Shown: piece by piece, positions 3,054 to 17,252 of the stretch
Layout: each line of letters begins with the position of its first letter
Position numbering within the stretch: position 1 is the first letter of the stretch
Assembly (NCBI RefSeq): GCF_900215535.1
Contig: NZ_OCND01000006.1
Coordinates: forward strand, 124,001 to 188,000
Direction of reading: 5' to 3'
DNA length: 64,000 bases
From: Pseudoxanthomonas wuyuanensis
Lineage (GTDB): Bacteria; Pseudomonadota; Gammaproteobacteria; Xanthomonadales; Xanthomonadaceae
The notes under the pieces: generated by a model
Told to the model about the DNA's origin: nothing
What the model saw: the letters and a program-made list of their open reading frames with translations, nothing else
Database searches by the model: none
Translations under genes and position numbers: made by a program

Positions 3054-3467
3054 TTAGTCTCCTCCACTCAACACCTCAAAGCGTGGAGGAGCATCTCGCA
3101 AGAAAGAGAGCCTTATAACGTTATTATCAAATGCCTCAAAGCGTAGCTGCACAGTCCCAGCCGAAATCGTGATGATATGACCTTCGGAAATTGAAGCTAT
3201 TTCGACCTTGCCGTTCTTAGGCACTTCAAATGGGACCTCGATAGCCCTTATACAGTCTTTATTTGAAAACTCATGGAACGGCTCATCAAAAATTTCTAGC
3301 GAACAAGTACCAGACTCAATCAAGACTTTAAACGAAACGCTCCCCGGTCGCCACGAAAAGCCCTGGCGCACCTGCTCATCCGTCCAAGAATTAAATGGGC
3401 TCTGCAGATCATGTCTAAAGACTGCGATCTGCGAATAGGATACAAATAGTTCAAAAATCGACTGCAT
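3054..3467 (-). CDS. comJ-like: ComJ-like nuclease inhibitor, probable immunity protein
   Basis: This 137-residue protein starts at MQSIFELFVSYSQ. The region SYSQIAVFRHDLQSPFNSW followed by WTDEQVRQGFSWRPGSVSF matches the ComJ family. In Bacillus, ComJ (Nin) binds and inhibits the competence nuclease NucA. The gene upstream in the same direction ends in a NucA/NucB-type domain and stops only 5 bases before this ATG, so this is very likely the cognate immunity protein. The internal ATG at 3467 was chosen over an open-frame start at 3539 because family similarity begins here and the longer form would overlap the toxin gene. There is no signal peptide, so it should act in the cytoplasm. The gene is visibly richer in A+T than its surroundings, which suggests transfer. 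Confidence 0.82.
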   Translation of the reverse strand: MQSIFELFVSYSQIAVFRHDLQSPFNSWTDEQVRQGFSWRPGSVSFKVLIESGTCSLEIFDEPFHEFSNKDCIRAIEVPFEVPKNGKVEIASISEGHIITISAGTVQLRFEAFDNNVIRLSFLRDAPPRFEVLSGGD

Positions 3468-3472
3468 CCGCG

Positions 3473-4402
3473 TTAATCCTCTACCACTATCCGTACCTTC
3501 GCTCCGTCTGGCAGGCCCCTGCACGCGTTTCCGATGCATGCCCCAGCACTCATATTGTCAGAGGGATTTATCGCTCGAACACTAGCACCTGAACCACCTT
3601 CTCTAAACATTGCCGGCGGATATTCATCAAGCTGCTTTCCTGGCACTTTAGGGATTCCACCAGTGGATGCCGCACGATTGGCGTCAGCACCGTCCCGTGC
3701 GATTGTCAGTACACTTGGTTTTCCAGCAGCAATTGCGTCCTTTGCATGTAGCGCGGCTTCGCCTTGAGCCTTTACGGATAGTCGAATTGTCTTCGCACCC
3801 GCATCTCCAACCAGCGGCACAAAACCGACTACAGCCGCTGAAATACTGGCAACGCTCGGATCTTGATACGCCTCAACAATTCCCTTCGCGTCCCCAACAA
3901 TCGGCGTGAAGTCCAAAGCCAATTCCGCCGCCGGCCTAAGTTCACTCAATGAGGGCATTGTAACCGCGCCACCATTGCACGCCGAGCTCGCATTCGGGTT
4001 ATCGCAAATGCGTCCGTCCGGATCGATATTGGTGTATGGATTGTTGTTGGCGTACCAGTAGCGGTTGAAGTTGTTTCCCGTTGCTCCATCGGCCGTTATC
4101 GGATCGACGCTCAAGAACCTTCCGAACTGCGGATCGTAATAGCGCTGCTGCATATACGTCAGCCCGGTCGCCGCATCCTGTACGTGACCGGTGAAGCCCA
4201 CCCCACCATAGCTGGGCTTGCCGATGATGGCCCCGTACGGCTCGTAATCATTGCGTTCGATGACCTGCCCTGCCGCATTGGTCACCGCCACCACACTGCC
4301 CAATGCGTCGGTATGGATGTACTCCACCGTGGTCTGCGCCTGGGCGGTGGCGGCCAAAAAAACGGTGCCCAACCACAACAAACACTTCCCTAATCCGTTC
4401 AT
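3473..4402 (-). CDS. Exported RHS-core protein with C-terminal NucA/NucB DNase toxin
   Basis: This 309-residue protein has three parts. (1) A Sec signal peptide, MNGLGKCLLWLGTVFLAATAQA, residues 1-22. (2) An RHS-associated core, residues about 25-130: YIHTDALGSVVAVTNAAG, then YMQQRYYDPQFGRFLSVDPI and NPYTNIDPDGR, which fits the PxxxxDPxG release motif of Rhs toxins. (3) A variable tip: a linker with FTPIVGDAKG and FVPLVGDAG, then from about residue 225 a NucA/NucB nuclease (TIARDGADANRAAS, LDEYPPAMFREGGSGASV, PSDNMSAGA, GLPDGAKVRIVV). It should be a secreted DNase toxin. Its start overlaps the upstream rhs stop as ATGA (4399-4402), so the two are translationally coupled. The toxin-encoding end is more A+T-rich than the core part. 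The start codon is supported by the signal peptide. Confidence 0.88.
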   Translation of the reverse strand: MNGLGKCLLWLGTVFLAATAQAQTTVEYIHTDALGSVVAVTNAAGQVIERNDYEPYGAIIGKPSYGGVGFTGHVQDAATGLTYMQQRYYDPQFGRFLSVDPITADGATGNNFNRYWYANNNPYTNIDPDGRICDNPNASSACNGGAVTMPSLSELRPAAELALDFTPIVGDAKGIVEAYQDPSVASISAAVVGFVPLVGDAGAKTIRLSVKAQGEAALHAKDAIAAGKPSVLTIARDGADANRAASTGGIPKVPGKQLDEYPPAMFREGGSGASVRAINPSDNMSAGACIGNACRGLPDGAKVRIVVED

Positions 4403-7400
4403 TCTCCTGCTCCTTCTGTCCGCATGATGATCACCGGATCACACGGTGCTGGACAGGGATCTTGAACCACCACTATTTGGACCGACGAGTACGGGCTACA
4501 GCCCGAACCATTGCAGGCGCGGACTCTATACCAATAGGAGCCAGAGCCACGGCCAGGCATATTCGCGCTTGTGCCGGTTCCGTTATATACCTGGTACCAG
4601 TGACTTCCACCGACAAAGGTTTCTTCCAACTGATAGTTACCAGCGCCGGCGACCGCTGTCCAACTCAGGTCATACGACCAATTCACGTCCACCAATCCCG
4701 GTGCATATAGCGTTGGAGCTGTACCAGGTGCCGGTGCCGGTGGAACCACGACCGTTGCGAGCGATGAGTAAGGACCGCAGCCGGCTACATTGCAGGCACG
4801 TACGCGGTAGTCGTAGCTGCCCACCGCGCGCCCCGTCAGTGCGACAGATGTTCCCGCTGCATCGTGAATCACGCCCCAAGCGCCGGTGTTGAAGCGTTGC
4901 TCCAATTGGTAGCTGGTCGCCGTGGCAATGGCATTCCAACTGACCGCGTAGCTTCCGGTGCTGCTGCTTGCCGGCGCGCTGAGCGTCGGTGCCGTCGCGG
5001 GTGCCCGGGTGACCTGGACTGTCGCCATCGACGAGTAAGGTCCGCACCCGGCCAGATTGCAGCCGCGTGCACGGTAGCGATAGGTCCCGGTTGCCCGCCC
5101 TGACATGGCCAGACTGGTCGCTGCCGCGTTATGAATCGTGCTCCAGTTGCCTCCATTGAACTGTTCATCCAGTTCGTGACGAACCGCAGCGCCTACCTGC
5201 CCCCAGCTCACCGTGTAACTGCCGGTCAGGTTCGTTGCTGGCGCGGAGAGTGTTGGTGCGCCCGTCGGTGACAACACCACCAGCACGCTCAGCGCGGACG
5301 AATACGCGCTACAGCCGGCCGCATTGCAGGCCCGCAAGCGGTATTCATACGTTCCGGCCGTCCGTCCTGTAAGCGTCTTGCTGGTCAAGGGACCGTTGTG
5401 GACGGTTACCCAGGCGCCGCCGGCCGGGCGCTCATCCAGTTCGTACCTGTCCGACGTAGCCACCGCACTCCACGTCACCGCGATGCTACCCGTCGTGTTG
5501 GGCGTGGATGCCACAGGCGTTGGGGATGTGGCTGGCGAATAGAATGCCTGCGTACTGGCCGCTGCCGAGGTCGGCCCGCAGCCAGCCGGGTTGCAGGCCT
5601 TGACCCGGTAGCTGTAGCTGCCGGCGGCCTTGCCGCTGTAGGCCCTGCTCTGGCTGGCGGTGTTCTGCACGCTGGCCCAGCTGCCACCATTGGCGCTCTC
5701 TTCCAGCGTATAGGTGGTCGCGCCCCCGACGGCCGTCCAGCTGACCGTGTAGGTGCCGTTGGGGGCGCTGGCCGGCACGCTCAGGCTCGGGGCGCTGGCC
5801 GGCGGCAGTTCCACCGTGGTGGTACCGGTGGCGCTCCAACCACTGCAACTGCTGGCCTGACAGGCGCGCACCCGGTAGCCGTAACTGCCGCTGCCTTTGC
5901 CGGTGTAGGCCTGGCTGGTAGCCGTCCCGCTGTAGGCCGCCGCCCAGCTGCCGCCATTGACCGCTTCCTGCAGTTCATAGCTGGTGGCTGTCGGTGTTGC
6001 CGTCCAGCTGACGGTGTAGCTGCCGTTGCCGCTGTAGCCGGGCGTGGTCAGGCTGGGCGTACCCGGCGCCACCACCGTGGTGACTTTGGCCACCAGGCTG
6101 CCGGCCAGGGTGACGTACTCGTAGTGCTTGCCGGTGCGGTGGTCTTCCTGCCGCCGCAGTGTGCCGTCCTGGCCGTACATCGACAGGATGGGCACCTGCG
6201 CAGGATTGTTGGCCTGCACCCGCCGGCCGTGGCCGTCGTAGCGGTAGGTTTCCTGGTTGGCCGCTTCGCGCAGCCGGTTGCCGTAGTCGAACGCATACTG
6301 CTGGCCGTTCTTGTTGGACAGATTGCCCTGCTCGTCGTACCACAGTCCCACAATCGCGGCATTGGCGCTGTTCTGGATGCTCAGCAATCGGTTGGTGTTG
6401 GGTTCGTAGTAATAGCTGGCGTAGTCCTTTACCCCGGCCAGCTTCCAGGATTTGAGGTTGTCCACCGCATCGTAGGTAAAGCGGTGCCAGTGGTCGCCGC
6501 CGAACATCGCCGAGCCGGCCGCCGTCAGCCGGTCCAGGCCGTCGTACTGCAAGGTGCGGCTGTAGTTGGTCCCGCGCACCAGGTCGTGAATCTGCGCCGG
6601 GTTGCCGTTGCGGTCGTAGGCGTACTCGTAGCCGGTGGCATTGCCCGACTGCACCCGCAGCGGCAGCTGGCGCGCGTTCTGGGTCATCGAATGCACGATG
6701 CCATTGCCGTAGGTGAACTGCTTCACCGCCCCGTTGGGGTAATAGCTCACGCCGGTGGCGTAGTTGCCCGCCTGAGTCGGTTGCCCCAGCGCATTGGGCG
6801 CGAAGGCAACCTGCAAGCCGCTGGGGTAGTTCAGTTGGGCCAGGGCGCCATTGCCGTCGTACTGGTAGCCCAGGCTCCAGGTATACCCCGGCTGGCTGAT
6901 GCTCTCGCTGGTCAGCAGGCGCCGCTTGTTGTAGCTGTAGCTATTGACGACCGGTTGGCCGCCATTGCTGTTCCAGGTACTGATGGTGTCCGGCAAACCA
7001 TCCAAGGTGTAGTCCCACACCTGGTTGCCGCGCCCGTCCGGGAAACTCAGCGTCTTGAGGCGGTTGCGGGCGTCGTACGTGCGGCTCACCTTGCGGGCGG
7101 CCACCGCCACGGCGGTACCGTTCGGCTCGCAGGCCGTCCCGGCCGCCAGCCCGGCCGACGACCAGGCCAGGTTGCCGGCCCCGTCATAGCCCATCAGCGT
7201 GGCGCCGGTCTCCGGCTCGACGCTGCGGCACAACTCCTGGTGGACGTTGTAGGCGTAGCTGCGCGTGACCAGCTGCGTATTGCCGGCATCGCGCCGGGTC
7301 AAGGCCGTCGGCTTGCCGAACACGTCGCGGGCAATGTCGGTGCGGGCGTTCTCCGGGTGCTGCACCCATACCGGGGCGTCGTAACTGGGCTGGCCGAAGA

Positions 7401-10017
7401 CCTGGTAACCGGTCAGCGTCACCTGGTTGCGCGGGTTGGTCACCCGGGTCTGGTGGTTCGGCAGGTACTCGGTCAGCGTCGTCAGCGGGGTGTCTTCGCT
7501 GTCCTGCGAGACCGAGGTCACCCGGCCCAGCGCGTCGTACTCGGTCCAGGTGCCGGTGCTCAAGGCATCCGTGGTGCCCGGGTAGGACGCGAAGGTGGTG
7601 CGGCCTGCGTGGTCATAGGTGAAGCGACTGAAGCGCTGGGTACCCGCGACATTGGCGGTGTCGTACTCGCGTACCACCAGCGGCCGCCACAGCGCATCGA
7701 AGTAGCGTACCTGGCGCGCATTGCCGGTGCTCACCGTCTGCCGCCAGTGGCCGGCCGCAATGCCGTACTCGTTGGCCGCTACCGGCTCGAACACCTGGGT
7801 GGTGTTGTTCCACACCGTCGTGTCACCGGTTGGGTAAGCCGCGCTGGCCAGCCGACCCATCGCGTCATAGGTGTAGTTGCTCGCAAAGCCGTTCTCGTCG
7901 GTCACCTGGGTCACCCAGCCCGACGGGTTCACCACCGCCGACTGGGTGCGGGTGTCGGCATAGGTGATGCTGCGCGGAATGCCGCGGTACCAGTCGCTCA
8001 ACGTGGTGGTGCGGTTGTTGCCGTCCTTGACCGTGGCCACCGTACCGTCGGCGTTGTAGGTCAGCGTCTGCACCAGCTTGCCAGAGGTTCCCGTCGTGCC
8101 CGGACCGTAGTAACGCAGCGGTAACGCCGTCGTCCCGTCATACTCGGCCCGCGACACCACCACGTTGGGCGAGGTATTGGTGTTGGTCACGCTCAGCGTC
8201 TGCCCCAGCACCCACTGGGACAGGTTGTCGTGGTAAGCCGTCACGTCCGTGCGGGTGTGCCAGGGACTCTGCCGCGTCACGCTCAACGGGCGGGCAAAGT
8301 TGTCGAAAGCGTTGACTTGATGAATGTAAGGCGCCGTACTGGATCCACTCGATGGCGTCGAGCCCCATTCCACCGGTCCCGCAATGTCACCGTCCTGCAG
8401 GACAGTTATTTTCTTTATTGGCCGGTTTTGAATACTGGAAATGTCATGACTTCCGGAGAGATAGCCAAACTCCTTCGGAAATGGCATTGAGGCTACTTCA
8501 GTCTCGCTGACATACTCGTTCAGCTCTGCCCTCAGAATATGGCCATCACTCCGACGCCGATACTTGCCCTGCAGTCGGCCATCGTTGTAATTGAACAATA
8601 CCCCAAAGACGTACTCGTCTTTGCTACCGTCAGGCTGGTTGACTATGACGGACTTCTCTTGGTCGCAAGTAGTGCAGTACACCCCACTGTAGTTTGCGCG
8701 CCCTGTCAGCGGATCACCATACGCGTAAGTCCACTGCTGCGGTGACAAGCCTGGACCGGTGATGGTTTTTCTATCCAGCGAGAACAGGTAGTAGTAGTCA
8801 GGGATGGCGAGCGACCAATGCTGCTCACCGTTTATGACACCTTCCAGCACACAGGCAGTGGCGGGAGTGCCGCTGATGCCATGACGGAGATACTCGAATC
8901 GGAACTCGCCCACGGCACCGGCCGGATGGGTAACTGTCAGACCGAAGCTCGCGTGGTCAGGCAACGGTTCGATGCAACTAGGACCTCCAATGCTTCCGTC
9001 TTGGATCGATGGAACTATGCTGAGCCCGCCGTTGTACAGATACTGCCAGCGCGACTGGTCCGGCAAGGTCACCATGGTCAGCGCGCGCGCGCGCGGATGG
9101 ATGCTGAAGTACAGACTGCTGTGATAGGTATAGTGCCAATCACGGCCATGAGCGCTCGCCTTAATAATGCGACCGTCGCTGTAGGTCAGCGTAATGATGC
9201 GCCCGTCACTGGCAACGATGCGGTTGAGCTGATCGCCCGAATATTCGTAATCGACGTAATTGCCGAACCGGTCCTGGACCCGCGTGGCCATCAGATAGAT
9301 CTTAGTCCGGTTCAGCGCTACTTCGCCCCAACCGGAAGCGGGCTTGCGGGTCACCCCGCCAGCTCGCTCAATGGCGTAGTTGAAGACGTACTGCGTGCCC
9401 TGGCTGTCCACGGCGATGAAACCTTGGCCCGGGTAGTTGAGCATGCTGGTGCACTTGAAGCGCAACTGTTCGCGGGTGTTCCAGTAGTAAGCTTGCCCGT
9501 CCGTAGGCTGGACGTTGCCCGAGGTGGCATTCCAAAGTACCGTCTGGTCACCTTGGCCTGGCAAGTGCACTTTAGTCCCGGTCCATACCTCGTGCTGGGA
9601 AAACGGCGCATCGACACGGGGGTAGAAGGGCTGCGAACAGCGGTCAGTGGCTGTATTGCCGCCGGTGTTCCACTTGTAGTCGGAAGGGAAGACACCGTAC
9701 ATATACGGGACCTCCAAGTCCCATGCGCCAAAACCACCCAAACTATCGGCATCGTTGCGCAACTCGACCTTGAAGCTGCGCCCGAGCCGTACCGACAATG
9801 CATGATTGCCGGGAAGATCAATATCCGTGACCGAAAATTCGGTTGCTCCGTTGTAGAGGCTGACGTTGTCACCGAACAAGTCCGACTTGAGCGGCGCCAC
9901 CATCTCCGCAGCCTTCACCAACTTGTCATATTCCTGGTACGGCGTGGTCTGCGCCAGTGCCATCGAACACGTCGCCATCGACACGGTGGCAAGCCACCCC
10001 AAGTGCCTTGTCTTCAT
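4399..10017 (-). CDS. Giant exported RHS/YD-repeat protein with six C-terminal FN3-like repeats
   Basis: This 1872-residue protein has a Sec signal peptide (MKTRHLGWLATVSMATCSMALAQ, 1-23). An N-terminal beta-rich domain (about 24-250) follows, then a long series of RHS/YD repeats (for example YTYDAMGRLASAAYPTG and YDRNGNPAQIHDLVRGTNY) to about residue 1310. The YD part ends at EYVTLAGSLVAKV, the strand that in one-piece RHS proteins is followed at once by YxHTDALGS. Instead there are six fibronectin-III-like repeats and a stop; YIHTDALGS begins the next gene. No toxin tip, PAAR or VgrG is present here, so delivery by type VI secretion is not indicated. It probably forms most of an RHS shell outside the cytoplasm. 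An AGGG ribosome site lies 5' of the ATG. Confidence 0.9.
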   Translation of the reverse strand: MKTRHLGWLATVSMATCSMALAQTTPYQEYDKLVKAAEMVAPLKSDLFGDNVSLYNGATEFSVTDIDLPGNHALSVRLGRSFKVELRNDADSLGGFGAWDLEVPYMYGVFPSDYKWNTGGNTATDRCSQPFYPRVDAPFSQHEVWTGTKVHLPGQGDQTVLWNATSGNVQPTDGQAYYWNTREQLRFKCTSMLNYPGQGFIAVDSQGTQYVFNYAIERAGGVTRKPASGWGEVALNRTKIYLMATRVQDRFGNYVDYEYSGDQLNRIVASDGRIITLTYSDGRIIKASAHGRDWHYTYHSSLYFSIHPRARALTMVTLPDQSRWQYLYNGGLSIVPSIQDGSIGGPSCIEPLPDHASFGLTVTHPAGAVGEFRFEYLRHGISGTPATACVLEGVINGEQHWSLAIPDYYYLFSLDRKTITGPGLSPQQWTYAYGDPLTGRANYSGVYCTTCDQEKSVIVNQPDGSKDEYVFGVLFNYNDGRLQGKYRRRSDGHILRAELNEYVSETEVASMPFPKEFGYLSGSHDISSIQNRPIKKITVLQDGDIAGPVEWGSTPSSGSSTAPYIHQVNAFDNFARPLSVTRQSPWHTRTDVTAYHDNLSQWVLGQTLSVTNTNTSPNVVVSRAEYDGTTALPLRYYGPGTTGTSGKLVQTLTYNADGTVATVKDGNNRTTTLSDWYRGIPRSITYADTRTQSAVVNPSGWVTQVTDENGFASNYTYDAMGRLASAAYPTGDTTVWNNTTQVFEPVAANEYGIAAGHWRQTVSTGNARQVRYFDALWRPLVVREYDTANVAGTQRFSRFTYDHAGRTTFASYPGTTDALSTGTWTEYDALGRVTSVSQDSEDTPLTTLTEYLPNHQTRVTNPRNQVTLTGYQVFGQPSYDAPVWVQHPENARTDIARDVFGKPTALTRRDAGNTQLVTRSYAYNVHQELCRSVEPETGATLMGYDGAGNLAWSSAGLAAGTACEPNGTAVAVAARKVSRTYDARNRLKTLSFPDGRGNQVWDYTLDGLPDTISTWNSNGGQPVVNSYSYNKRRLLTSESISQPGYTWSLGYQYDGNGALAQLNYPSGLQVAFAPNALGQPTQAGNYATGVSYYPNGAVKQFTYGNGIVHSMTQNARQLPLRVQSGNATGYEYAYDRNGNPAQIHDLVRGTNYSRTLQYDGLDRLTAAGSAMFGGDHWHRFTYDAVDNLKSWKLAGVKDYASYYYEPNTNRLLSIQNSANAAIVGLWYDEQGNLSNKNGQQYAFDYGNRLREAANQETYRYDGHGRRVQANNPAQVPILSMYGQDGTLRRQEDHRTGKHYEYVTLAGSLVAKVTTVVAPGTPSLTTPGYSGNGSYTVSWTATPTATSYELQEAVNGGSWAAAYSGTATSQAYTGKGSGSYGYRVRACQASSCSGWSATGTTTVELPPASAPSLSVPASAPNGTYTVSWTAVGGATTYTLEESANGGSWASVQNTASQSRAYSGKAAGSYSYRVKACNPAGCGPTSAAASTQAFYSPATSPTPVASTPNTTGSIAVTWSAVATSDRYELDERPAGGAWVTVHNGPLTSKTLTGRTAGTYEYRLRACNAAGCSAYSSALSVLVVLSPTGAPTLSAPATNLTGSYTVSWGQVGAAVRHELDEQFNGGNWSTIHNAAATSLAMSGRATGTYRYRARGCNLAGCGPYSSMATVQVTRAPATAPTLSAPASSSTGSYAVSWNAIATATSYQLEQRFNTGAWGVIHDAAGTSVALTGRAVGSYDYRVRACNVAGCGPYSSLATVVVPPAPAPGTAPTLYAPGLVDVNWSYDLSWTAVAGAGNYQLEETFVGGSHWYQVYNGTGTSANMPGRGSGSYWYRVRACNGSGCSPYSSVQIVVVQDPCPAPCDPVIIMRTEGAGE
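4450..6070 (-). repeat. Six tandem FN3-like repeat units (about 89 codons each)
   Basis: Residues about 1316-1855 of the giant RHS protein consist of six units of 87-92 residues. Each has the plan APTLSxPxxxxTGSYTVSW, then a YELxExxNGGxW strand, a SGRxxGxYxYRVRAC strand and an NxxGCGPYSS turn. Each unit carries two cysteines spaced like ACNAAGC. The units differ enough that this is an old expansion, not a recent copy error. Fibronectin-III modules act as spacers or binding modules in secreted proteins. Confidence 0.85.
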
Positions 10018-10231: not shown

Positions 10232-12340
<2,109 letters not shown>

Positions 12341-14621: not shown

Positions 14622-17252
14622 TTACAGCGTGCGCTGCACTTCGATGCGCTCGAAGCATTCGATCTGGTCGCCCGGCTTGACGTCGTTGTACTGCTTCACG
14701 CCGATGCCGCACTCGGTGCCGTTGCGCACTTCGTCGACGTTCTCCTTGAAGCGGCGCAGCGATTCCAGTTCGCCTTCGAACACCACGGTGCTGTCGCGCA
14801 GCACGCGGATAGGCTTGTTGCGCTTGACCGTGCCCTCCACGACCATGCAGCCGGCCACCGCGCCGAACTTGGAGCTGCGGAACACATCGCGGACCTCGGC
14901 GATACCGATGATCTCCTCGCGGATTTCCACGCCCAGCATGCCCGACGCCACCTGCTTCACCTGATCGATCACGTCGTAGATGATCGAGAAGTAGCGCAGG
15001 TCCACGCCATTGGCTTCGACGATGCGGCGCGCAGCCGCGTCGGCGCGCACGTTGAAGCCGATCACCGTGGCCTTGGAAGTGACCGCCGAATTGGCGTCGG
15101 ACTCGGTGATGCCGCCCACGCCCGCGTGGATGATGTTGATGCGGATCATCTCGTTGGACAGCGCCACCAGCGAATGCTTCAGCGCCTCCACCGAACCCTG
15201 CACGTCGGCCTTGATGACCAGGTTCAGCACCTGCTGGCCCTCGCCCTTGCCCAACTGCGACATGATGTCTTCCATGCGGCTGCCGGCCGACTGCACCAGG
15301 CGCGACTCGCGCCGCTTGGCATCGCGCTGCTGCGCCACATCCTTGGCCAGGCGTTCGTCGGCCACCACGACGAAGTCGTCGCCGGCATCGGGCACACCGG
15401 ACAGGCCGAGCACCTGCACCGGAATCGACGGCCCCGCCGACACCGGCTGACCGCCGGTTTCGTCGAACAGCGCGCGCACGCGGCCGTACTGGACGCCGCA
15501 CACCAGATAGTCGCCCTTCTTCAGCGTGCCCTGCTGCACCAGCACCGTGGCGACTGGGCCGCGGCCCTTGTCCAGCGAGGATTCGATGACCACGCCGGTG
15601 GCGCGGCCTTCGTACATCGCCTTCAGCTCCAGCACTTCGGCCTGCAGCGAGATCGCATCCAGCAAGGCATCGATGCCGGTGCCGACCTTGGCCGACACTT
15701 CGACGAACTGGGTATCGCCGCCGAATTCTTCCGCCACCACTTCCTGCGCCAGCAGTTCGTTCTTGACCCGCAGCGGGTCGGCGTCGGATTTGTCGACCTT
15801 GTTGACCGCCACGATCAACGGCACGCCGGCCGCCCGCGCATGCTGCACCGCTTCGATGGTCTGCGGCATCACGCCGTCGTCGGCGGCGACCACCAGCACG
15901 ACGATGTCGGTGAGCTTGGCGCCGCGCGCGCGCATCGCGGTGAACGCGGCGTGGCCGGGGGTATCCAGGAAGCTGATGACGCCGCGCGGGGTTTCCACAT
16001 GGTAGGCGCCGATGTGCTGGGTGATGCCGCCGGCTTCGCCGGTGGCGACCTTGGTGCGGCGGATGTAGTCCAGCAGCGAGGTCTTGCCGTGGTCGACGTG
16101 GCCCATGATGGTGACCACCGGCGGACGCGGCAGCTTGTCGCCCTGCACTTCCTCCGAATGCGCCAGCAGTTCGCTTTCGGCATCGTCGTTGCCGGCACGG
16201 ACAACGTTGTGGCCGAGTTCTTCGGTCACCAGCGCCGCGGTGTCGTGGTCGATGGTCTGGGTGATGGTGGCCATCACGCCCATCTTGAACAGCGCCTTGA
16301 CCACGTCGCCGCCCTTCAGCGCCATCTTCTGCGCCAGATCGGCCACGGTGATGGTGTCGCCGATGGCGACATCGCGCACCACCGGCGCGGTCGGACGCTC
16401 GAAACCGTGCGCGCCGCCGCCGCCGCGCGACTGCTCGTGGCGGCGCGGCTTGGGCTTGCCGCGCGAGGTGCTGCGGCGTGCGCGGTCGGCCGCGGACAGA
16501 TGCAACTGGCCGGCAAAACGCTGGGTGCTGTCGTCGTCCTCGACGCCGGCGACCATCGCATGCGAGCCACGGGTCTTGTGCTTGTGGGCAGCGGTGCCCG
16601 GGCGCTCTTCCACGCGCGGCGGCTCCTTGCGCGCCGGCGGTTTGGGCACATGATGCCCGCCCGGCTTGGCCGGACGCGCGGCTTCGCCATCTTCGCCGGC
16701 CACAACGCCCGCCGCGGCAGCGGCGGCTTCGGCCTCGGCCTGCAGGCGCGCGGCCTCGGCCTCGGCACGGGCGGCTTCCTCTTCCTGCCGCTGCTGCGCC
16801 AGCTGTTCGGCGCGCCGTCTGTCTTCTTCGGCCAGCCGCTTCTGTTCTTCCAGATTGCGCTGCTTGGATTCTTCCAGCTTGCGCAGGATCTCGGCGCGCT
16901 CGGCATCCATCTCCTGGGCCGGGGTTTCGCCTTCGGCCGGCTTGACGTAGGTGCGCTTCTGCCGCACTTCCACATTCACCGTGGTCTTGGTGCGGCCGGC
17001 AGCGACCGTCACTTCCTGAACCTTGCGGCGATTGAGCGTGATCTTCTTCGGTACCGCCACGTCATCGGCCGGCTTTTCCGCCTTGCCATGGGTGCGGCGC
17101 AGGAAGCCGAGCAGCTTCATCTTCTCGGTACTGGTCACGACCTGGTCGGGGCCGCTGAAGCTCATGCCGGCCTCGGCCAGCTGCTCGAGCAGTTTCTCGA
17201 CAGGCGTGTTGACCAGTTCGGCCAGCTTGCGGATGGTGGTTTGCTGCGACAT
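14622..17252 (-). CDS. infB: Translation initiation factor IF-2
   Basis: This 876-residue GTPase brings initiator tRNA to the 30S subunit. The N-terminal IF2_N domain ([20 protein letters not shown]) is followed by a long charged, Ala/Glu-rich, probably helical linker (about 105-200). The G domain then carries [16 protein letters not shown] and NKVDK (about 385-500), and the C-terminal C1/C2 domains end in [19 protein letters not shown]. It lies between nusA and rbfA in the conserved cluster. The ATG at 17252 has an AGGA site before it. No internal start for a shorter isoform was sought. Confidence 0.97.

Follow-up and report, generated by a model that had tools for sequence, protein, structure and literature searches.

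The 64,000-nucleotide stretch of Pseudoxanthomonas wuyuanensis DNA analysed here (the window; NCBI RefSeq assembly GCF_900215535.1, contig NZ_OCND01000006.1, positions 124,001 to 188,000) carries two overlapping minus-strand genes that share out the parts of an Rhs-type toxin. The locus is likely to encode a two-chain, Sec-exported, Rhs-type antibacterial toxin, in which one YD shell is formed from separately exported chains. YD/RHS repeats (PF05593) and the RHS-associated core (TIGR03696) are both present, but on two chains, the former on the large chain, P0001, and the latter on the small chain, P0002. Docking of the two chains after export would be the best reading of these sequences, and it fits the genetics of Bcn-A, a bacteriocin of Xanthomonas perforans for which both ORFA and ORF4 are needed. 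To our knowledge, the toxin of an Rhs or Tc capsule is enclosed during the folding of one chain or of a cytosolic pair. If the present reading is true, separately exported chains must meet and enclose the toxin after membrane crossing, and separate export lets one shell serve several toxins.

The two chains of the window and the adjacent immunity gene

P0001 (4399..10017, minus strand like all features of the system; 1872 residues, ATG start) appears to be an exported YD shell that ends in FN3 units. Its N-terminus reads MKTRHLGWLATVSMATCSMALA followed by QTT, and the Sec signal peptide (residues 1-22, 9952..10017), judged by eye, is weak and fails the simple home-made rule used here as the signal-peptide test. 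The YD/RHS shell region (residues 583-1311, 6085..8271; 55.1 bits with PF05593 in Pfam) is also recognised through a modelled fused relative that resembles Rhs, Tc and teneurin shells. It runs to ...EYVTLAGSLVAKVTT and then into FN3-like units; by translation and by the alignment behind the shell tree, GSLVA (residues 1306-1310, 6088..6102) is the final shell strand before the break. A custom profile built from four of the P0001 units yields six C-terminal FN3 units (4453..6084), while the Pfam fn3 match stays at 19.4 bits, under the 25-bit cut-off, and ChitinaseA_N, with 58 bits, is the best match to these repeats. Pfam, TIGR03696 and core searches of P0001 revealed no RHS core, and its four Pfam families at E 0.1 include no PAAR, VgrG or other domain of the type VI secretion system (T6SS).

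P0002 (3473..4402, 309 residues, ATG start) comprises a signal peptide, an RHS core, a pre-toxin region and a NucA/NucB DNase. The protein begins with MNGLGKCLLWLGTVFLAATAQA followed by QTTVEYIHTDALGS..., and the Sec signal peptide (residues 1-22, 4337..4402) is supported by the translation and by the rule. The core, YIHTDALGS...DPDGR (residues 28-131, 4010..4321), was delimited by TIGR03696 (80.3 bits) and by alignment of the tails, as the small core-bearing proteins are called below. The pre-toxin match, PT-TG, lies at 19.8 bits, below its cut-off of 23.5, and the Pfam match to DNase_NucA_NucB (residues 251-305, 3488..3652; profile positions 43-99 of 100) has 30.7 bits against a cut-off of 23.8. 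Asp100 and Asp127 of the core are invariant across 34 aligned tails, and by motif position we take them to be the autoprotease dyad, as compared with the passages cited next. In these passages on Rhs and Tc proteins (PMC8765631), an Asp pair frees the toxin, and the capsule is sealed by the C-terminal region, which folds inward. Both toxin-cutting aspartates are apparently kept in P0002, the cleavage itself being predicted.

The two reading frames share the four bases ATGA as stop and start (4399..4402). Three points of a preliminary description of the locus thereby hold: a 1872-residue protein ending in GSLVA and FN3 repeats with no core, a 309-residue protein that YIHTDALGS opens behind its own signal peptide, and the ATGA overlap. 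Its statement that GSLVA is directly followed by YxHTD in usual RHS proteins has to be corrected, as 8-15 residues intervene in 35 of the 37 fused chains measured.

Next to the toxin end, and beyond the two genes of that description, lies a ComJ-type immunity gene that is counted here to the system (3054..3467; 137 residues if the likely start, 3467, is used, with the longest open reading frame (ORF) beginning at 3539; ComJ match of 74.3 bits). The DNase family, PF14040, is presumably of the ComI type. By Pfam, this presumed ComI-type DNase adjoins a ComJ-type inhibitor, with inhibition predicted, and the variable C-terminal toxin has an adjacent immunity gene, with activity likewise predicted; the arrangement fits a toxin-immunity pair. 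ComJ is given as the immunity protein for Tox-ComI in the passages available from PMC3482391. An Undibacterium locus (L066) has a similar toxin and a ComJ-like neighbour that is 39% identical to the ComJ of the window over 117 residues.

Shells that end in FN3 units and the tails behind them

A search with P0002 residues 1-135 returned 3067 proteins of about 170-540 residues at E <=0.001; in many of the 120 matches listed, Y[IVL]HTDALG follows immediately on a signal peptide. Applied to 228 small proteins, the simple rule found a signal peptide before the core in 169 and none in 9, with 50 left unjudged where the motif failed. The survey itself covers 100 sources, namely the window, 20 further stretches and 79 loci (L001-L044 omitted), which were found mainly through tail cores, so that the counts are no census. 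They hold 178 unique ORFs, of which 53 are signal-peptide tails (59 by the rule, six of which were reassigned to the orphan class by the GSLVA pattern), 58 are core-less and 37 fused chains, and 30 belong to an orphan-or-other class.

Among these, 74 chains have a YD region that reaches its end: 30 core-less, 37 fused and 7 others. FN3 units occur in all 30 core-less chains (four to nine units in 25 of them, one in 5), in none of the 37 fused chains and in none of the 7 others; FN3 units and the core are thus mutually exclusive among the surveyed chains of this kind. A signal-peptide tail comes next on the same strand after 29 of the 30 core-less FN3 shells. Each of the 24 close pairs offers a possible tail start within -43 to +34 bases of the shell stop, and 13 of them would permit a -4 overlap, ATGA or GTGA. 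The junction differs as well, since the residue before HTD is I, V, L or M in 46 of 47 tails vs 1 of 36 fused chains. The rule detects a signal peptide in 17/17 fused chains with an N-terminal part, in 21/25 FN3-bearing core-less chains, where the window is a miss, and in 25/26 others.

The same association holds within the genus. Signal-peptide tails (sought among the small frames with a match beginning no later than residue 29, minus one stop-containing frame in G035) are present in 7 of 38 genomes, and core-less FN3-ended shells in the same seven. Searched from the shell side, the genus yields eight core-less FN3-bearing frames of the window type (one each in G000, G016, G024 and G033, two each in G009 and G035), all of which adjoin a tail frame, one tail being cut by a contig end. 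A further genome, G010, has no window-type shell and a tail-like frame (L062) whose short leader does not pass the rule.

Shell and core also change together. In 28 of 29 split pairs (one tail was too short), shell and core distances correlate with r 0.64 (P 0.0001), a value that falls to 0.54 minus one outlier and is close to that of the 37 fused chains (0.70). Shell and toxin distances are uncorrelated (-0.12 and -0.07). On a shell tree of 67 chains, 37 of them fused, nine changes between the split and fused states are needed, at least 5 on well supported branches, against about 22 in shuffles, which indicates that the end of the gene switched state several times. The expectation that this break would recur in pairs of exported RHS genes elsewhere is therefore borne out: it is real, old and recurrent, and its halves look exported and co-vary. 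An earlier shell tree with 29 of the 67 rows gave no clustering (6 changes, a number not exceeded in 253 and 249 of 500 shuffles), but its cut-out was faulty and it is superseded. The core tree of 108 rows needs 8 changes, 1 of them forced, and has too few columns to place the origin of the tails.

The preliminary description also proposed that a toxin cassette with its own signal could be swapped without keeping frame with the large gene. Among 213 small proteins, 21 pairs reach a similarity, measured by alignment score, of at least 0.90 over signal peptide plus core; 15 of the 21 are less than 0.30 similar in what lies behind the core. Most toxin exchange thus falls behind the core but within the tail gene, and is bound to the reading frame just as in ordinary Rhs proteins. 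The proposal is only partly supported, though whole signal-bearing tails do occur in tandem and apart from shells: L121 has one shell and then three tails, and of the 53 tails, three are the second or third of one shell and one has only a shell fragment, 8.6 kb away. In L065 (2849-13996) a fused shell is followed by two separate signal-peptide tails, so fused shells may have tails too. Four Stenotrophomonas loci (L122, L126, L133 and L140) contain several signal-peptide tails or fragments, with no shell upstream in the available bases.

Relation to Bcn-A and to other Rhs and Tc capsules

Bcn-A is one of three bacteriocins tied to X. perforans outcompeting a sister species, and it gains a new testable reading from the comparison with the window. 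According to the passages of its description available (PMC7259588), the system consists of ORFA (1398 residues, YD), ORF2 (124), ORF3 (100), ORF4 (290, signal peptide) and ORF5 (145, immunity). Killing is abolished without ORFA, ORF2 or ORF4 and weakened without ORF3; a type II secretion mutant (xpsD) has no Bcn-A activity, and the activity is found in the supernatant, mostly above 100 kDa. These passages name ORFA as the toxin and give ORF4, which is somewhat like WapA and RhsA, a role in delivery or processing; the pair is not described there as one split RHS fold (PMC7259588).

The counterpart of ORF4 was recognised through its printed helices, both of which (two exact 23-residue matches with the same spacing of 28) are found in P0153, a protein whose listed start is 19 residues short of the published start and which runs into ...SASAQVIRYIHTDGLGS. 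Judged by this sequence, ORF4 is a signal-peptide RHS-core tail. The Xanthomonas locus L120 has the same five-gene order, with products of 1398, 123, 101, 304 and 143 residues; its two small genes (9169-9844; signal-like starts by eye) stand at the places of ORF2 and ORF3, and no Pfam match was found in them or in the presumed immunity gene. Of the published Bcn-A primers, A3, A5 and ORF3F match L098 and L120 at 1-2, 1-2 and 6-7 mismatches vs 5-7, 4-5 and 9-12 for five shuffles each. With the remaining seven, and in L110, the fit exceeds that of shuffles barely or not at all. Primer ORF4F, also tried on the family, matches in 2 of 395 genomes with 2 mismatches each, probably by chance.

Bcn-A and the window are thus alike in a large YD chain, core-less in the window, followed by a signal-peptide core tail and an immunity gene, and Bcn-A killing needs both halves. 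The present reading would swap the Bcn-A roles, making ORF4 the toxin carrier beside the ORF5 immunity gene and ORFA the capsule.

Two-chain YD shells are already known from the Tc toxins, where they are cut at another point. As in the window, TcB and TcC are two chains that make one YD capsule, the second holding core and cargo, and packaging extends to a second chain encoded at a distant locus (YenC3; passages of PMC11067744). However, the TcC chains 4igl_B, 5kis_B and 6l7i_G align to the model of the fused relative from residue 294-295, whereas the cut of the window falls at about 767-771, away from the TcB/TcC boundary, and the window chains carry Sec-like signals, each its own. T6SS Rhs effectors (RhsA, Tse5, Tse15) share the YD shell, the C-terminal core with an Asp dyad, the variable toxin and the immunity protein, but have shell and core in one chain, where the window has two ORFs and a signal peptide instead of a T6SS domain. 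WapA and bacterial teneurin-like proteins have a YD shell and a variable toxin end, and many are Sec-exported; shell and core form one chain, and the passages available describe no separate core gene (PMC13018210). Orphan Rhs C-terminal cassettes, which may be among the 30 orphan or other ORFs of the survey, are likewise displaced core-toxin pieces, but each signal-peptide tail comes with a start and an export signal of its own. In the parts of the open-access literature covered by our search, no Rhs fold split into separately exported chains was met.

Proposed assembly after export, the alternatives and further cuts

If the locus encodes a two-chain exported toxin, its genes are probably translated together because of the ATGA overlap, and each chain would be exported by its own signal peptide, as predicted from the N-termini. 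The large chain would then fold outside the cytoplasm into an open YD shell, and the small chain would continue the interrupted sheet with its next strand and bring the C-terminal seal that turns inward and carries the toxin. The two chains would close one capsule around the NucA/NucB-type DNase, the core aspartates, to judge by their conservation, would cut the toxin free, and release would probably proceed by type II secretion, as for Bcn-A; the genome encodes a GspD (548.8 bits vs a cut-off of 351.35). ComJ would shield the producer, as the pairing of the families suggests. The weakest step concerns the FN3 units, which occupy the position at which a fused chain would go on into its core and probably serve to bind a surface or target.

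The signal peptide on each chain would equally suit another arrangement, in which the small protein is a self-sufficient secreted toxin, the large one an unrelated adhesin, and the two are neighbours instead of one shell. Tails without shells point the same way: no shell lies upstream in the available bases for 20 of the 53 tails (340 to 13264 bases; less than 2.5 kb in three), Stenotrophomonas loci such as L122 have several tails and no shell in the available stretch, and such tails may act elsewhere or alone. Mere neighbours would hardly be expected, however, to show the pattern described above, in which the FN3-ended chains are the only YD-end chains that lack the core and nearly all precede a tail, the core co-varies with the shell while the toxin does not, and Bcn-A killing needs both genes. 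In one model of a fused relative, moreover, the core strand succeeds the shell strand. Independent neighbours are therefore improbable.

Much less probable still is an additional long protein, made through frameshifting or read-through at the ATGA overlap. The 13 close pairs with a possible -4 overlap would allow it, but the other 11 have no -4 start, the five loci with one FN3 unit have their possible tail starts 0.5-3.2 kb downstream (with two small genes between in L120), and a fused product would bury the signal peptide within the shell. That a recent stop or frameshift broke an ordinary fused Rhs gene, or that the assembly is in error, is hardly credible. The preliminary description had named this as what would undo its proposal, and fused relatives do exist, 37 among the 67 chains of the shell tree and one even in the same genome (48% identity to P0002); a recent break was nevertheless rejected, being contradicted by the presence, in several genera, of a complete signal peptide, FN3 units and an altered junction residue all at this point, and by the clustering of split and fused states on the tree.

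Several further points weigh against a two-chain shell. Of the 30 core-less FN3 shells, L126 alone has no tail behind it; it is followed by an opposite-strand gene and has two tails upstream. The tail frame of L049 ends shortly past the core. The sample favours shells with tails nearby, because its loci were found mainly via tail cores, and part of the shell-core correlation could arise from linkage without contact. Modelled alone, P0002 was poorly predicted (mean predicted local distance difference test score, pLDDT, 53.2), and this single-chain model was set aside as too poor for use. On the side of Bcn-A, the assignment of the toxin to ORFA is opposed to the roles proposed here, and the bcnA product is said to have no signal sequence (passages of PMC7259588), while the relative of ORFA in L120 passes the signal-peptide rule. 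The shells of the Bcn-A type (L098, L110 and L120) end in one FN3 unit, whereas that of the window ends in six, and two small genes separate the halves in L120 and Bcn-A, where those of the window overlap.

Related shells are also cut at two other conserved points. Twelve chains begin at the YD region with no N-terminal part, 11 of them with a signal peptide by the rule and 10 just behind an N-terminal chain. Twelve more begin mid-shell (about 917 of P0001), each with a signal-like stretch, and nine of these come after a chain ending at about 908-913. Three loci (L049, L060 and L125) have three chains each, and in L123 seven FN3 units stand at the end of the N-terminal chain, so chain ends at a different cut can also be marked by FN3 units. 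Opinion is evenly balanced on a broader proposal, that the Sec-exported Rhs capsules of this family are commonly multi-chain. One YD shell would then have three conserved cuts (N/R at about 585 of P0001, mid-shell at about 910, and GSLVA/YxHTD), the downstream chains would have their own signals, up to three chains would form each extracytoplasmic capsule, and any of several co-exported tails could be loaded, giving a mixed payload.

The genome assembly (4.67 Mb, 33 contigs; G000) contains two other Rhs-type loci. In C10 (L045), a second split system, an 874-residue shell chain with its own signal peptide and one FN3 unit is followed by small ORFs with signal-like starts and then, about 3 kb on, by a signal-peptide tail; no N-terminal chain lies directly upstream. 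In C20 (L046), which holds the fused relative mentioned above, the shell is cut at N/R and the core is fused; the 48% identity to P0002 is that of its core and toxin end, and a different-looking 238-residue ORF comes next.

Within the window, the toxin locus borders housekeeping genes, with a polynucleotide phosphorylase gene upstream on the same strand (10232-12340) and an IF-2 gene at 14622-17252. Downstream of the immunity gene lies a pair of transposase ORFs (1803-2935; integrase core and HTH_Tnp_1, IS3-like by eye), possibly linked to mobility of the cassette. A short inverted-repeat-like stretch (118-382; GGCCTGTTAACG...CGTTAACAGGCCC, by eye) is found upstream of a DUF1501 gene.
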